Origin: Ottowia beijingensis
GTDB lineage: Bacteria > Pseudomonadota > Gammaproteobacteria > Burkholderiales > Burkholderiaceae_C
Direction: 5' to 3'
Length of the DNA: 64,000 bases
Assembly (NCBI RefSeq): GCF_013423955.1
Contig: NZ_JACCKX010000001.1
Coordinates: forward strand, 372,001-436,000
The translations under genes were made by a program, and so were the position numbers. Below are positions 14,182-19,504 of this stretch, piece by piece (the stretch's first letter is position 1; every line of letters starts with the position of its first letter). The notes below the pieces were generated by a model. That model was not told the DNA's origin. It was given only the letters and a program-made list of their open reading frames with translations, and searched no databases.

Positions 14182-14242
14182 CGCGCGCCCCCGACATCGA
14201 TCACCTCTTCAAGCCGACGCCCCCTCATTTCAGGAGCCCTTC

Positions 14243-15151
14243 ATGCTCATCAACAACGCCAACCTCAAGACGCTGTTCGTCGCGTTCAACGCCGCCTTCA
14301 AGGCCGGGCTCGGCCAGGCCGCCAGCCAGTACGGCCAGATCGCCACCACCGTGCCCAGCACCACCGGCGCCGAGGAATACGGCTGGCTCGGCCAGCTGCC
14401 CGGCCTGCGCGAATGGCTGGGCGACCGCGTGGTGCACGCCATCGGCAACCACGGCTACACCATCAAGAACCGGCCCTTCGAGCTGACCGTGGGCGTGCCG
14501 CGCACCGCCATCGAGGACGACACCTACGGCGTCTACACCCCGCTCATGACCGAGATGGGCCGCGCGGTGGAGGCGCACCCCGACCAACTGGTGTTCGGCA
14601 TGCTCAAGAGCGGCCACAGCGGGCTGTGCTACGACGGCCAGCCCTTCTTCAGCGCCACGCACCCGGTGCTGAACGACAAGGGCAAGCCCGTCGCCCAGAG
14701 CAACGCCACCGGCAACGGCACGGGCGACGTGTGGTACCTGCTGGACACGCGCCGCGCCCTCAAGCCGCTGATCTACCAGACCCGCAAGGCGCCCAACTTC
14801 GTGGCGCTCACGGCCGAGACCGACGACAACGTGTTCAACCGCAGCCAATACGTGTACGGCGTGGACGCGCGGCGCAACGCCGGCTACGGCTTCTGGCAGC
14901 TGGCGCATGCCAGCAACGCCACGCTGAACGCCGAGAACCTGACCGCCGCCATCACCGCCATGGAAACCCGCACCGGCGACCACGGCCGCCCGCTGGGCAT
15001 CAGCCCCAACCTGCTGGTGGTGCCCAAGAAGCTGCGCTTCGACGCCAAGAAGCTGCTCGAGGCCGACCTGGTGCCCAACGCCGCCGGCACCGCGACCGAG
15101 TCCAACCCCGTGAAAAACGTGGTGGACCTGCTGGTCGCCGACTGGCTGTAA
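14243..15151 (+). CDS. Major capsid protein (Mu gpT family)
   Basis: Main shell protein of the head. Family hallmarks are LKTLFVAFNAAFKAGLGQAA at the N-terminus, EEYGWLGQLPGLREWLGDRV, NRPFELTVGVPRTAIEDDTY, GVYTPLMTEMGRAVEAHPDQ and a C-terminal PNLLVVPKKLRFDAKKLLEA. The length of 302 residues is normal for gpT. A good AGGAG ribosome site precedes ATG 14243. The frame is intact. A 100-bp gap follows before gp36. Confidence 0.88.
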   Translation: MLINNANLKTLFVAFNAAFKAGLGQAASQYGQIATTVPSTTGAEEYGWLGQLPGLREWLGDRVVHAIGNHGYTIKNRPFELTVGVPRTAIEDDTYGVYTPLMTEMGRAVEAHPDQLVFGMLKSGHSGLCYDGQPFFSATHPVLNDKGKPVAQSNATGNGTGDVWYLLDTRRALKPLIYQTRKAPNFVALTAETDDNVFNRSQYVYGVDARRNAGYGFWQLAHASNATLNAENLTAAITAMETRTGDHGRPLGISPNLLVVPKKLRFDAKKLLEADLVPNAAGTATESNPVKNVVDLLVADWL

Positions 15152-15253
15152 CCGACACCTCCAGAGCCGTGCGGCGACTGCGCCGCGTCTGCGGCCGGGG
15201 GCGGATAGGCCGACCCAAGCGAACGCCCCGGCAACCCAATTTTTGCAAAGGCC

Positions 15254-15766
15254 ATGCCCTACATCACTCATGCCGAACTCGCTGAAAACCCCGGAGCGCT
15301 GGAGCTCTCCGAGGTGGCCAGCGACGAGCACGCCCAGCCAGTCGCGGCCGGCCTGCTCGACGCGCTGCTGCGCGGGCAGGACGTGGGCGCCTGGCCGGCC
15401 GACGACGTGGCCGCCGCGCAGCGCGCCGTGGCCCGCATCGACGCCGCCGTGGCCGATGCCGACGCCGTGATCGACGGCTACCTGGCCAAGCGCGGCTACG
15501 CGCTGCCGCTGCAGCCCGTGCACCGCCTGGTCACCGCCTGGTGCCGCGCCATCGCGCGCTACCACCTGCACAAGAACCGACTCGCGCCCGACGGCAAGGA
15601 CCCCATCGAGCGCGCCTGGCGCGATGCGCTGCGCCTGCTGCAGCAAGTGGCCGACGGCAAGTTCGCGCTGGGCGCCGGCGACCCGGTGGCCGTGCACAAG
15701 CTCGACGCGCGCTTCGACAGCGCGCCGCTGGTCTTCGGCCGCAAGCAGCTGCGCGCCTGGAGGTAG
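15254..15766 (+). CDS. Mu gp36-like protein (DUF1320), head-tail connector
   Basis: DUF1320 proteins act at the head-tail interface. Here the body reads ARIDAAVADADAVIDGYLAK, RGYALPLQPVHRLVTAWCRA, IARYHLHKNRLAPDGKDPIE and ARWDALRLLQ-type helices, with a C-terminal beta segment (FDSAPLVFGRKQLRAW). 170 residues, close to family length. It sits after the capsid and before gp37, as in Mu. Confidence 0.78.
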   Translation: MPYITHAELAENPGALELSEVASDEHAQPVAAGLLDALLRGQDVGAWPADDVAAAQRAVARIDAAVADADAVIDGYLAKRGYALPLQPVHRLVTAWCRAIARYHLHKNRLAPDGKDPIERAWRDALRLLQQVADGKFALGAGDPVAVHKLDARFDSAPLVFGRKQLRAWR

Positions 15767-15771
15767 CGGGC

Positions 15772-16245
15772 ATGAGCTTTGCGCCCTTCGACACCTCGCT
15801 CATCGTTGAGCGCCTGGTCACTCAGCTGCCCGCGCTGCACTTCGTTGGCGGCGCGGCCGACTACGCCGCGGTGAAAGAGCTGCGCGGCTTTCGCACGCCC
15901 AGCGCCTATGTGATCTTTGCCGAGGAGAACAACACCGGCAAGGTGCCCACCAGCATCGGCGTGTGCGCGCAGGAATCGCTGGTCGAGTTCGGCGTGGTGC
16001 TGGCCCTGCGCAACTGGCGCGAGGCGCGTGGCGAGCAGATGCAGGCCGACATGCGCCAGCTCATCGGCCAGGTGCGCGCCGTGCTCATCGGCCACAAGCC
16101 CGCCGCCGCCGGCGCCCGCGTCATCGGCTGGCAATCCGGCAAGGTGCTCGACTACGACGCCAGCGTGCTGCTATTTGCCGACGTGTACCAGATGCACCAT
16201 GTGATGCACCGCGACGAGGTGGCCCCATGCCCGCCGCGAGCCTGA
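15772..16245 (+). CDS. Mu gp37-like protein (DUF1834), tail terminator type
   Basis: Follows gp36 after 5 bp. The DUF1834/gp37 pattern is visible: TSLIVERLVTQLPALHFVGG, TPSAYVIFAEENNTGKVPTS, QESLVEFGVVLALRNWREAR and QMQADMRQLIGQVRAVLIGH, then a closing strand with ASVLLFADVYQMHHV. Proteins at this position cap the tail and join it to the head. 157 residues, frame intact. Confidence 0.75.
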   Translation: MSFAPFDTSLIVERLVTQLPALHFVGGAADYAAVKELRGFRTPSAYVIFAEENNTGKVPTSIGVCAQESLVEFGVVLALRNWREARGEQMQADMRQLIGQVRAVLIGHKPAAAGARVIGWQSGKVLDYDASVLLFADVYQMHHVMHRDEVAPCPPRA

Positions 16246-16251
16246 CGCGCC

Positions 16252-16830
16252 ATGAGCAGCGAGCCGGCCCTCACCCTCAAGCGCGGCGGCACGTTGCGCC
16301 TGCACTGCCAGCTGCAAAGCGGCGGCGCCGGCGTGCCGGTGGCCGGCTGGCAGATCGACTGCTGGTTGCGCGATGCCGCTGGGCGCCGCGTGGCGGCACT
16401 GGCCGTCACGCCGACCGACGTGGCGAGCGGCCGCTACGAGCTGGGGGCCGAGCCGGCGGACACCGCCGGCTGGCCCGCCGGCCTGCTGTCGGGCGACATC
16501 CGCTACCAGGACAGCAGCGGCCGCGTCATGCACACCTGCACCTTCACGCTGGCACTGCTCGACGCGGTGACCACCCCTGAGAGTCCGCCCATGAGCACCA
16601 CCGTCATCGAGCCCGCCTGCCAGCTAGTGACCACCGTCACCCACCAGGGCCACAGCGTCGGCATCACCGTCGTCGGCGTGCCCGGCCCGGCCGTGCCTGG
16701 CACGGGCGGCGGCGCCGGCATCAGTGCCGACCCCGGCAACCGCGCCATCGCCGGCACCGACGGCGGCGTGTACGTGCGCGACGACCTCGTGCCCGATCCC
16801 TTTGCGTACTACATCCTGGCCAAGGCCTGA
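16252..16830 (+). CDS. Putative tail-tip/adhesin-like structural protein
   Basis: 192 residues. The N-terminal ~110 residues form a beta-sandwich-like domain (LTLKRGGTLRLHCQLQSGGA, GWQIDCWLRDAAGRRVAALA, LLSGDIRYQDSSGRVMHTCT). The second half has a Gly/Pro-rich linker (VPGPAVPGTGGGAGIS) and the pattern NRAIAGTDGGVYVRDDLV, seen in many phage tail-fibre proteins. It starts a three-gene cassette (16252-18408) between gp37 and the tail tube. No enzymatic motif is visible. Confidence 0.55.
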   Translation: MSSEPALTLKRGGTLRLHCQLQSGGAGVPVAGWQIDCWLRDAAGRRVAALAVTPTDVASGRYELGAEPADTAGWPAGLLSGDIRYQDSSGRVMHTCTFTLALLDAVTTPESPPMSTTVIEPACQLVTTVTHQGHSVGITVVGVPGPAVPGTGGGAGISADPGNRAIAGTDGGVYVRDDLVPDPFAYYILAKA

Positions 16831-16841
16831 AAGGAACCACC

Positions 16842-17363
16842 ATGACTCTTGAACAACGCCTCATCGCCCTGGCCCAGGCCATGGGCGCCGACGTGAAGGC
16901 CCTGCTGCAGGCGCAGGGCAGCCTGTCGGCGCTCAGCACCACGGCCAAGAACAACCTGGTCGCCGCCATCAACGAGCTGAAGACCGCCCTGGACAACGCT
17001 GGCACCGGCGGCGTGGCCATTGACGATGCCGCCGGCGACGGCGCCACCACCGTCACCTGGTCGGCCGACAAGATCCACGACACCATCGAGGCCGCCAAGA
17101 CTTTGGTGAAGGACGAGCTGACCGATGGCGCGGCCGCGGCGCTCGACACCCTGGCCGAATTGGCCGCTGCGCTGAACGACGACCCCAACTTCGCCGCCAC
17201 CATCGCCGGCGAGATCGCCAACCGCGTGCGCTTCGACGCCGCACAGGTGCTGACCGAGCCGCAGCAGGCCCAGGCCCGCAGCAACATCGGCGCCCAAAGC
17301 GCCGCCGCCATCGGCAACCCGGATCACGACCTGGTGGCCGATTACACCGACGCAAAGGCCTGA
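16842..17363 (+). CDS. Tail-fibre-like protein sharing its N-terminus with the next gene
   Basis: 173 residues with an AAGGAA ribosome site. The first ~54 residues (LEQRLIALAQAMGADVKALL, then SALSTTAKNNLVAAINELKT) are clearly paralogous to the start of the downstream protein. The remainder carries WSADKIHDTIEAAKTLVKDE and LTEPQQAQARSNIGAQSAAA, the latter a common tail-fibre repeat ending (QARSNIGA). It probably forms part of a receptor-binding or fibre-attachment structure. Confidence 0.6.
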   Translation: MTLEQRLIALAQAMGADVKALLQAQGSLSALSTTAKNNLVAAINELKTALDNAGTGGVAIDDAAGDGATTVTWSADKIHDTIEAAKTLVKDELTDGAAAALDTLAELAAALNDDPNFAATIAGEIANRVRFDAAQVLTEPQQAQARSNIGAQSAAAIGNPDHDLVADYTDAKA

Positions 17364-17367
17364 AGTC

Positions 17368-18408
17368 ATGAGCTTGCAACAGCGTTTGACCGCACTGGCT
17401 CAGGCTGTGGGCGGCGATGTCAAGTCGCTGCTTGCCGCCCAGGGTTCGCTGCAGGCGTTGACCACCTCGGCTAAGAGCAACTTGGTGGCGGCGGTCAACG
17501 AACTCAAAAGCGCGGTCGATGCGGCCGGTGGCGGCGCGTCAGACGAGCTGCTGCACGGCCCCGCCATCGTGTCGCAAAAGCTGCTGGAAGGCCCAGTCGC
17601 ATTTAACAACTGGATCGCGGTGTCGGGCAACCTGGTCATCTTTCGGCAACTGCTTGACTCGCTCGCCGGGCTGACCTATCTGGTCAACAACAGCGTTGCC
17701 ATGCAGTCGCTGGCCGGCAACGCAACGGCCATGGGCGAGGTGGCTGCCAGCGCGTCGGCGATGGCCGCGATGGCCGCGAGCCAGACCTCCATGAATGCAC
17801 TTGTGGCCCATGCGACCGCGCGCACTGCCGTGGCCAGCAGCGCGGTCGCCGTGGCGGCATTGGCTGCCAGCCCGGTCGCCATGCACACGTTGGTCAACAA
17901 CCAACCGATGCTCAGCGCATTGGTCTCGAGCGCGCATTGGGGCTTGTTCGAGGCCAGCACGGTGCTCCCTGTGTTTGGGGGCTCGCTCGCCATGGTGGCC
18001 GACGCGGCGCCTGGCTTCGCCACGACCTCGGCATCGAGCGTCTATGCGGCCGGCTTTGAGGCCTTTCGCGCGTTTGACGGCGTCGCCGCATCCCGCTGGG
18101 CCGCGGCCGGTGTAGCGGCCTCTGGAGCTTGGCTGCGGGTGTCGTTCGTGCAGCCTCGGTTTGTGCACACGCTGCGCGTGGTGCCCAATGCCAATGATGT
18201 GTACACCGCATGGCGGCTGGACTACAGCGACGACGCGGCCAACTGGTCGCCGGCTTACAGCGCAGCGTCCTACACCGCGCAGGCGGGTGTTGCCACAACC
18301 CATCCGGTGGCGGTGGCCGGGCGCCACCGGCATTGGCGCTTCTTCGTTGTCACCAGCTCGACCGGTTTTGCCGCGACGCGCGAGCTGGAACTCGACGGCT
18401 GGCTCTGA
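17368..18408 (+). CDS. Tail-fibre-like protein with discoidin (F5/8 type C) end
   Basis: 346 residues. The N-terminal module (LQQRLTALAQAVGGDVKSLL, TTSAKSNLVAAVNELKSAVD) repeats that of the upstream gene. The centre (about 110-190) is a run of short Ala/Met repeats such as AMGEVAASASAMAAMAASQT, typical of repetitive phage fibre shafts. The C-terminal ~140 residues look like an F5/8-type carbohydrate-binding domain (EAFRAFDGVAASRWAAAGVA, WLRVSFVQPRFVHTLRVVPN, WRLDYSDDAANW, final RELELDGWL). I infer a receptor-binding protein with a sugar-binding tip. Confidence 0.62.
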   Translation: MSLQQRLTALAQAVGGDVKSLLAAQGSLQALTTSAKSNLVAAVNELKSAVDAAGGGASDELLHGPAIVSQKLLEGPVAFNNWIAVSGNLVIFRQLLDSLAGLTYLVNNSVAMQSLAGNATAMGEVAASASAMAAMAASQTSMNALVAHATARTAVASSAVAVAALAASPVAMHTLVNNQPMLSALVSSAHWGLFEASTVLPVFGGSLAMVADAAPGFATTSASSVYAAGFEAFRAFDGVAASRWAAAGVAASGAWLRVSFVQPRFVHTLRVVPNANDVYTAWRLDYSDDAANWSPAYSAASYTAQAGVATTHPVAVAGRHRHWRFFVVTSSTGFAATRELELDGWL

Positions 18409-18445
18409 GCCCACAACCACCTTTCAAACCGTACAGGAGGTCTCC

Positions 18446-18627
18446 ATGGAAAAACCAAGCACATCGAACTCGTCAAACCCCACCGCCACGCCGGCCGCGA
18501 CTACCAGCCGGGCGCGCGGCTCACGCTGCCGGCGCACAAGGCCGACTGGCTGATCGGCGTCGGCAGCGCGCGCGATGCGTCGCCGGTGCCAGCGCCGACG
18601 CCGGCCAAGCCAGGCGCAAAGGACTGA
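18446..18627 (+). CDS. Short tail-module protein (~60 aa, frameshifted at the start)
   Basis: A strong AGGAGGT ribosome site precedes ATG 18446. One extra A in the AAAAA run at about 18450-18454 gives METKHIELVK-type sequence: KHIELVKPHRHAGRDYQPGA, RLTLPAHKADWLIGVGSARD and a Pro/Ala tail. This matches the short proteins (LLKPHTHAGRDYPPG type) encoded between connector and tail-tube genes in transposable phages. Without the correction the frame gives only Ser/Thr/Arg noise. Role unknown. Confidence 0.6.
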
Positions 18628-18689
18628 GCGAGGGCGCACGGCGCACCCTCCCTGCCACCCCTGATTCAACCCAACGGAGCACACCCACA

Positions 18690-19504
18690 TGCCAGCCAAC
18701 GTTTCCACCCCGATCATCTGGAACGGCCAGGGGCCGGTCCACATCGGCACCTACGACCCGGTCAACGGCCGGGCCGAACAGGGCTTTCTGACCAACCTCT
18801 ATTCCGTGGGCTGCGGCAACCGCACACTCACGGCCACGCCCTCGCGCGAGACCACCACGCTCAACGAGAGCTGCTCCGGCCAGCGCCTGACGCTGAAGGA
18901 AATGGAGACCAGCAAGAGCCTGCAGGTCAGCCTGTCGATGGTGCAGTTCGACAGCCGCACGCTGGCGCAGGCCTTCTTCGGCGAGGCCGTGCTCAAGGAG
19001 GGCGGCACTGTGACCGAGGAGGTGCTGGCCAGGCTGGCGCCGGGCGACTACTTCTTCCTGAAGCACCCGCGCGTGTCCAGCGTGGTGATCGAGGACAGCA
19101 CCGCCGGCACGCCCATCACCTACGTGGAGGGCACGCACTACCTGATCGACGACGCCGACCACGGCCGCTGCCGCCTGATCGCCCACCCGGGCGCGCCCGA
19201 TCCCGAGCACGTCGAGCCGCTGAAGGTCGACTATGAGTACGCCGGCTTCATCAACATCGCGGCCTTCAGCAAGACCAATGTCGAGAAGGGCATCGTTTTC
19301 AGCGGCATCAACGGCGACGGCCAGAAGGTGCGCGTGATCATTCCGCGCATCAGCCTGGCGATGAACGGCGACTTCGGCTGGATCACCGACGAGGCCAGCG
19401 AGCTGACGCTCGGCGGCCAGGCGCTGTACGTGCCGGATCTGCAGACCGACCCGATGTACGGCCCCTTCATGCGCATCGACACGATGCCGGACCTGCCGGC
19501 CTGA
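18690..19504 (+). CDS. Major tail tube protein
   Basis: 271 residues forming the tube of a non-contractile tail. Characteristic stretches are TPIIWNGQGPVHIGTYDPVN, GFLTNLYSVGCGNRTLTATP, KEMETSKSLQVSLSMVQFDS, VDYEYAGFINIAAFSKTNVE and VRVIIPRISLAMNGDFGWIT. It lies between the tail-tip cassette and the tape measure, as the tube gene does in B3-like phages. No sheath gene is present nearby. Frame intact; a strong terminator follows the stop. Confidence 0.72.

Follow-up and report, generated by a model that had tools for sequence, protein, structure and literature searches.

A gene cassette in a Mu-like prophage of Ottowia beijingensis probably encodes an ordered clip-together chain with an exchangeable tip

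Two neighbouring genes in a prophage of Ottowia beijingensis encode proteins that begin alike and end differently, and the question is what the shared beginning serves. The genes, here named P1 and P2, lie on the same strand 4 bases apart in a stretch of 64,000 nucleotides (contig NZ_JACCKX010000001.1, positions 372,001 to 436,000, forward strand), which is referred to below as the window and in whose numbering positions are given. P1 (16842-17363) encodes 173 amino acids and P2 (17368-18408) encodes 346; together with a preceding 192-amino-acid open reading frame (ORF; 16252-16830), of which the second half is termed P0, they make up the cassette. A preliminary description of the window interpreted the pair as a duplicated docking module with exchangeable tips. 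The shared module of docking type and the exchangeable tip of P2 stood up to analysis, but interchangeable tips on both proteins did not. The cassette instead probably encodes an ordered chain, P0-P1-P2, whose members clip together through short C-terminal peptides (tags) and N-terminal helices and whose last member bears an exchangeable tip. The features of the cassette are the following:

16252..16590, + strand: P-1 half of the 192-amino-acid ORF, without a Pfam match; a possible beta-sandwich adaptor, the fold being our own reading
16591..16830, + strand: P0 half of the same ORF, the tag carrier, with an in-frame ATG at 16591 and ending in ...DGGVYVRDDLVPDPFAYYILAKA
16801..16827, + strand: C-terminal tag of P0, FAYYILAKA, recognised by the tag pattern
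16842..17363, + strand: P1, made up of helix, linker and C-terminal tag (phrog_4757; AlphaFold2 (AF2) model)
16842..16904, + strand: N-terminal helix of P1, residues 1-21, the proposed socket (AF2 helix 3-25; heptad-like pattern with invariant Asp17)
17334..17360, + strand: C-terminal tag of P1, VADYTDAKA (AF2 helix 164-172, predicted local distance difference test (pLDDT) ~87; tag pattern)
17368..18408, + strand: P2, made up of helix, stalk and discoidin tip, without a tag (ORF; PF00754)
17368..17430, + strand: N-terminal helix of P2, residues 1-21, the proposed socket (helix matrix, module profile)
17431..17529, + strand: P2 residues 22-54, the second half of the shared module, common to P1 and P2 in few phages only
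17680..17949, + strand: stalk of P2, ~nine decapeptide repeats (autocorrelation at lag 10)
18025..18321, + strand: F5/8 type C (discoidin-like) tip domain (PF00754)

The similarity of the two beginnings, claimed at the outset, is present in alignments: in a search of one genome, P2 matched P1 over residues 1-66 with 68% identity (E 1.3e-14). A profile of the module, with P1 among its sources, finds P1 at E 9e-25 and P2 at E 2e-22. It covers residues 1-51 of P2 in the window and in two relatives, L003 and L004, while in most relatives the match to the second gene extends only over its first ~22-42 residues. Across 56 P2s, conservation of the consensus is confined to about the first 21 residues; this set was drawn from the 66 P2s that reach 90 amino acids and lie outside a cluster of 44 with a conserved tip; of the ten left out, eight had a relative in the set and two were phage-record loci. 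The likeness of P1 and P2 over ~54 residues in the window is unusual among its relatives. At locus L079, the second half of the module (LTTTAKxNLVAAINEL) is matched three times in succession, at 2980, 3130 and 3205, with the first helix absent.

The related loci have more in common than this beginning: the gene before P1 and P1 itself end in related tags. Endings before P1 read ...DPLAYYILAKG or ...FAYYILAKA, and those before P2 read ...DFVADYTAAKA; in other lineages both tags change together, as in ...LTLIFENGLI before P1 and ...FVAVFEAGLV before P2. Occurrence was counted in 127 distinct, closed, full-length P1s, left from 150 after removal of identical or open ones (the duplicates and window copies L001, L002, L092, L094, L103, L106, L115, L120, L165 and L182 and the partial L177 had been dropped beforehand), with L121, in which P1 and tip are fused, excluded from the tag and downstream counts. 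The tag pattern is loose, was written after examples of both tag kinds and was partly judged by eye, and it was used with random-position controls; it ends 125 of 126 P1s and 258 of 19,003 control ORF ends. An upstream ORF ending in a strict tag between -45 and +15 bases of the P1 start was found in 65 of the 127 loci, compared with 74 of 16,244 random positions (0.46%). Another 15 of the 127 upstream endings are degenerate tags by eye, for example LAHYILASN and LVLLFENKLI, and L112 has an upstream tag that is truncated where the contig ends.

On the downstream side, the gene after P1 starts with a helix of the same type in 121 of 124 loci, two further loci having been excluded for short downstream sequence. 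The helix matrix was trained on P1 helices only, and it gave no match at the 1,865 positions, out of 3,000 random draws, that lay far enough from P1. Among the three loci below the cut-off, L026 has a helix-like start (score 5.0), L210 has one located 17 codons inside the predicted frame, and L087 has nothing. P2, in turn, rarely ends in a tag: the pattern occurs in 4 of 119 closed P2s (3.4%; control ORF ends 1.4%), and none of these four is followed by a helix gene.

The same order is found in viral records. DNA patterns run against 2.9 million viral contigs gave 47 stretches for LAYYILAK and two for one of the tags of another class (class L, see below); these form the C-terminus of an ORF in 48 of 49 cases and are followed by a helix gene in 46 of 48, although many of the contigs were already in the set, so that this is not an independent sample. 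The exceptions are L288, which is likely a chance match, L309, which ends with its contig, and L301, in which the ORF ends inside the tag. All 16 named isolates have an upstream tag (by eye), and 14 of the 16 have a downstream helix. The first nine are Cygsa01, phiN3, PMBT3, CcrPW, Burley, Tanis, BL57, C1 and Ep020, the first four of these being among the 127; the seven later ones are Fork, Domovoi, RHph_N46, Stormageddon, Pumpernickel, Nocardia P3.1 and Aflac, of which Aflac is close to Burley and RHph_N46 has weak tags.

The proteins that carry the upstream tag are varied. With the tag removed, 80 carriers fall into 25 clusters, 55 of them in one, and some small clusters may be distant relatives. 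The carrier of L009 is a gpV-type baseplate protein (PF04717, phrog_9992) followed by a Gly-rich linker and the tag. In Gordonia phage Stormageddon (L323, 2213-2493), P1 is preceded by two tiny genes, of 48 and 45 amino acids, with tag-like ends. At the DNA level, LAYYILAKG is encoded by nine different versions; the synonymous sites of the tag vary, and it is therefore the amino acids that are kept.

Tags and helices also vary together. The tag classes of P0 and P1 agree in 63 of 65 loci (52 and 11 in the two classes); two are unclassified and none is crossed. A basic residue at position 13 of the P2 helix occurs in 0 of 64 class-K helices and in 9 of 14 class-L helices, the latter taken one per tip cluster and the former all counted. 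Within class K the two joints can be told apart, since a YYIL-type core is present in 48 of 51 P0 tags and in 0 of 51 P1 tags, and P1 and P2 helices were assigned to their role in 89 of 102 cases by leave-one-out. P1 and P2 helices of the same phage are nevertheless slightly more alike (mean score 57.1) than those of different phages (53.4), which weighs against a purely role-based split. Positions 3, 7, 10, 14 and 21 of the helix are mostly hydrophobic, and Asp is found at position 17 in 51 of 51 P1s and in 51 of 51 P2s. If the helix follows a heptad repeat, Asp17 would occupy a core position, and a lysine near the tag end would be a natural partner.

What follows these beginnings is different in the two proteins. 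P1 is a full-length member of phrog_4757, a family of unknown function (E 3.4e-46, residues 1-172), which is matched by 48 of 48 P1s of the alignment set, while P2 matches it by residues 1-57 only (E 1.6e-13). Parts of P1 are matched by several PHROG tail and tail-fibre families; in Pfam there was no match at E ≤1 except DUF5682, below its cut-off. The QARSNIGA segment mentioned in the preliminary description is present in P1, but the variable tip attributed to this protein is not: P1 is a conserved linker with a C-terminal tag of its own. The AF2 model of P1, built from 48 sequences, contains helices at residues 3-25 and 164-172; the second of these corresponds to the tag (pLDDT ~87). A fold search with this model aligned 13 chains in PDB, none of them a useful match (best Z 2.8). 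In BFVD it gave three proteins at E ≤0.001, by name a tail fiber, a minor tail protein and one without a name.

In P2, the Ala/Met repeat shaft and the discoidin-like domain anticipated from the sequence are both confirmed. Residues ~105-194 contain ~nine copies of a 10-residue Ala/Met-rich unit, the last two of them poor, and the autocorrelation at lag 10 over residues 99-190 has z = 6.0 relative to 300 shuffles; a stretch related to this stalk occurs in PDB entry 7qlr (E 1.3e-4) and in phrog_7809, tail fiber (E 8.6e-10). Residues 220-318 match PF00754 with E 1.1e-8 and 35.7 bits, compared with a curated cut-off of 28.2, and resemble discoidin-type domains of glucanase/chitosanase in PDB (E 1.3e-6). 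The tip is a predicted sugar or lipid binder with a putative role in host range. A search with the stalk and tip of P2 in 300 genomes of the same order gave, apart from their own copy, one weak match.

The last gene is diverse across the set. Where the helix is clear, P2 has between 58 and 878 residues, and 110 tips fall into 42 clusters, of which one conserved type of ~130 amino acids accounts for 44 and the other 66 are distributed over 41. The Pfam matches among the 56 P2s include collar (6), discoidin (2) and single matches to GDPD, GDSL esterase, CBM, C1q, BNR and laminin-G. In Microbacterium phage Fork (L320, 3106-4866), P2 is annotated as a hydrolase and has a weak pectate-lyase-like match (PF12708) just below the cut-off, and is possibly an enzymatic tip on the same helix start.

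Comparison of the cassette across related prophages, which had been proposed as a check for recombination at the module border, covers two cases. The DNA of L004, a close relative, is 95-100% identical to the window throughout most of 14201-16841; lower values occur across 15101-15280 (57-82%) and at 14801, 15341 and 16181 (83, 90 and 82%). Identity then falls to 73-90% in P1, 60-77% in the P2 module and 35-63% in the P2 tip, which is not alignable, and returns to 83-100% over 18461-19180, beyond the tip; L004 has an unrelated tip between flanks that are for the most part almost identical. In L003, P1 is a mosaic of 68-100% identity, the first ~60 bases of P2 are 63-77% identical and the remainder is 92-100% identical. 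This step within P2 places a junction near residue 18-20, at the end of the first helix. The evidence for exchange consists of these two comparisons and is not a survey of events.

A group of loci in which P1 lies next to a terminase gene behaves differently. In the terminase-adjacent P1-P2 loci, for example L127, L166, L172, L180, L219, L239 and L254, the ~130-amino-acid tip is conserved, which is the opposite of tip exchange; the 44-member cluster of this tip also holds L225, outside the terminase group. A second prophage of the O. beijingensis genome has an arrangement of this kind (G000:C1:1489139-1489775 and 1488747-1489746; L180, L263-L265), with a terminase-adjacent P1-P2 and the conserved 130-amino-acid tip.

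The gene order, the tags, the helix-type starts, the tagless P2, the diversity of tips and the other tip of a near relative can be read directly from the genomes compared. We infer from them that the parts dock physically and trimerise and that the host surface is touched by the tip, and the following assembly is proposed. P0, which is fused to P-1 in the window, would be fixed to the virion, with a short helical tag at its C-terminus. The N-terminal helices of P1, probably forming a trimeric bundle, would take up this tag, and the N-terminal helix bundle of P2 would take up the C-terminal tag of P1. P2, having no tag, would end the chain, with stalk and tip pointing outwards. The tag-helix pairs at the two joints, being related but distinguishable, would enforce the order P0-P1-P2. 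Since the last link is constant only in its first ~21 residues, any domain gaining that start could be clipped on, and tips would be exchanged between phages in this way.

Several observations weigh against this chain. The largest group is formed by 43 of the 127 P1s (42 and L219) that lie directly behind a terminase-like gene and not behind a tagged one; the upstream ORFs of all 42 terminase-group loci resemble the terminase of L240, a locus that has the same P1 as L239 and is thus itself outside the 127. In the second prophage of the same genome, the one of this type that was searched, no other convincing tagged ORF was found in 60 kb, and the first joint of the terminase-type P1 must therefore differ or be absent. 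Loci L121, L210 and L212 have no clear upstream tag, and CcrPW and Nocardia P3.1 have no annotated helix gene after P1. A matrix built from P1 tags only missed the P0 tags, with a score of at least 8 in 1 of 127 loci and of at least 6 in 10 of 127 (random positions, 3 of 20,000); the tags differ by role, and the looser tag pattern was used for this reason. Neither the agreement of tag classes nor the position-13 counts are corrected for descent. The AF2 model of P1 has a predicted template modelling score of 0.30 and is informative for secondary structure only, and that of P2 (pLDDT 31.7; four sequences, two of them fragments) supports no claim.

The preliminary description had regarded a single fused gene at this place in related phages as incompatible with its interpretation. 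Such a gene occurs once in the set: L121 contains the helix, the tag, a glycine/asparagine-rich linker and the tip in one chain, without a second module. This would be expected of a second joint that simply stands in for a covalent link, and it fits the chain, although no tagged gene lies just upstream of L121, which the chain model leaves unexplained.

P1 and P2 might alternatively dock in parallel on the same virion site via the shared module, as alternative or competing fibres, and the homology of the modules, which are alike over ~54 residues in the window, would agree with this. Such an arrangement is nonetheless unlikely, because it leaves the P1 tag (125/126, compared with 4/119 in P2) without a task, and because the helices of the two proteins differ by role (89/102) and the fusion in L121 lacks a second module. 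A further reading takes the tag for a C-terminal fold element or for another signal, such as a trimer cap, a chaperone site or a nucleotide signal for the next gene. The tag does lie right against the start codon that follows, as a translation signal would, and the helix, which occurs without an adjacent tag in 43/127 loci, could be an independent feature. The class of the tag, however, goes with that of the next helix and with that of the P1 tag, and the tag occurs on carriers without detectable similarity, so that we regard this reading as quite improbable; the specific idea of a translation signal was set aside, as the synonymous sites vary.

It is also conceivable, though very improbable indeed, that P2 is a decaying copy of P1 from a recent duplication, with a foreign tail and no shared function. 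In the lineage of the window the modules resemble each other past the first helix, a sign that conversion or re-duplication may have occurred, but in 121 of 124 loci the helix is kept and the rest replaced, and the arrangement is also found in phages of Proteobacteria and Actinobacteria. A wider proposal, put forward tentatively as less than an even prospect, is that the tag-helix pair serves phages as a general and portable connector on any tagged virion part, be it capsid-side, baseplate spike or tail, so that a single short helix start would suffice for recruiting any tip, and that P1, having both plug and socket, could polymerise where the joints are not kept apart, like the head filaments of giant Caulobacter phages. 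An unlimited polymer of P1 is disfavoured by the role-specific tags.

The genomic surroundings bear on where the chain would be attached. Family matches identify 14225-19501 as the head-to-tail junction of a Mu-like prophage within the 4.29-Mb genome, in the order gpT-type major head protein (PF10124, E 3.1e-118), gp36 (PF07030, E 4.2e-27), tail terminator (PF23840, E 2.4e-47), cassette and tail tube (NF052337, E 2.5e-32). The gene content is that of a Mu-like phage with a siphophage-type tail module. The P-1 half of the 192-amino-acid ORF has two matches, both weak (phrog_1084, E 0.0076; phrog_5774, head-tail joining, E 0.0022). Its counterpart is a separate gene of ~100 amino acids in relatives such as L006 and L012, and P0 is likewise a gene of its own in relatives. 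Between P2 and the tail tube, at 18448-18628, lies a small gene whose conserved body is in a reading frame that lacks a start codon close by; the copies of L003 and L004 are intact, and that of the window is disrupted or misread. Elsewhere the cassette is followed downstream by baseplate J (L010), lies between the genes for terminase (GpA) and portal, beyond which come a protease and a phage_cap_E capsid gene (L240), follows the major capsid gene by five to seven genes in Caulobacter phage C1 and by two to four genes in Microbacterium phage Fork, or precedes lysin and holin by a few genes in Gordonia phages Burley and Tanis. Because the neighbourhoods vary between capsid, terminase, baseplate and tail, a tail location cannot be concluded for the cassette of the window. 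Full sets of carrier, linker and tip are present in Caulobacter phage C1 (L270, 4509-5916) and Brevundimonas phage Domovoi (L321, 2111-4486), and in these giant Dolichocephalovirinae phages they are candidate capsid-side fibres. The P1 homologue of Burley, gp8, is annotated as a head fiber protein and has the same gene order, but the name is an annotation only and a structure was not found, and for the window no phi29-type head fibre match was seen in Pfam.

Proteins joined end to end are known from the T4 long tail fibre and from the lactococcal BppU-BppL organelles, which the proposed chain resembles as a fibre or adhesion device of consecutive proteins; to our knowledge, a small common tag-helix order across unrelated phages has been described for neither. 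This order was not found in the titles and abstract starts listed from an open-licence library, nor is it described in the available parts of a preprint (PMC13252515) and of a paper on phage 7-7-1 (PMC12796354). A closer likeness is offered by the anchor-branch receptor-binding systems of G7C, K1-5 and the Klebsiella KP32/KP34 groups, in which, according to the accessible part of the source, a phage has several fibre proteins and the second is presumed to be attached via a short conserved N-terminal peptide, the remainder being freely swapped (PMC6872550). The P2s of the cassette similarly have a short conserved start (~21 residues in 56 P2s) and a variable remainder. In the anchor-branch systems, however, the first protein has an internal T4gp10-like domain as acceptor, and the peptide varies by phage group (same part of PMC6872550), whereas in the cassette the later protein would be the acceptor through its N-terminal helix and the earlier one the donor through its C-terminal tag, at two consecutive joints. 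The T4gp10-like family is absent from the listed matches of P1 and of the 192-amino-acid ORF in Pfam, PHROGs (25 of 30 families listed for P1) and NCBIfam, from which weak matches were filtered.

A joint of this kind has a solved precedent in the contact of hub and receptor-binding protein in the Casadabanvirus JBD30, which, in the portion of the source available, is a single joint in the core baseplate, compared with the two proposed for the cassette (PMC11445458). JBD5 belongs to the same genus; its head gene is of gpT type (PF10124) like that of the window, and it has, between its tail terminator (PF23840) and tail tube (NF052337), one gene of 59 amino acids and no cassette; the cassette of the window is thus an insertion relative to JBD5. 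The last large tail gene of JBD5 before the putative receptor-binding protein, whose role as hub is suggested by its position, has no tag.

For the head filaments of the related phage phiCbK, the responsible gene had not been established in 2012 and gp76 was proposed, as far as the consulted part of the source states (PMC3556154). The cassette offers candidate capsid-side fibre genes in the giant Caulobacter and Brevundimonas phages. If the chain is real, a C-terminal tag of ~9 residues and an N-terminal helix of ~21 residues would locate fibre chains in very different phages, and these two signs would name the carrier, the linker and the tip among genes many of which are now annotated as 'hypothetical protein' or 'tail fiber protein'. 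It would also provide a concrete and cheap binding assay for how exchangeable tips are attached.
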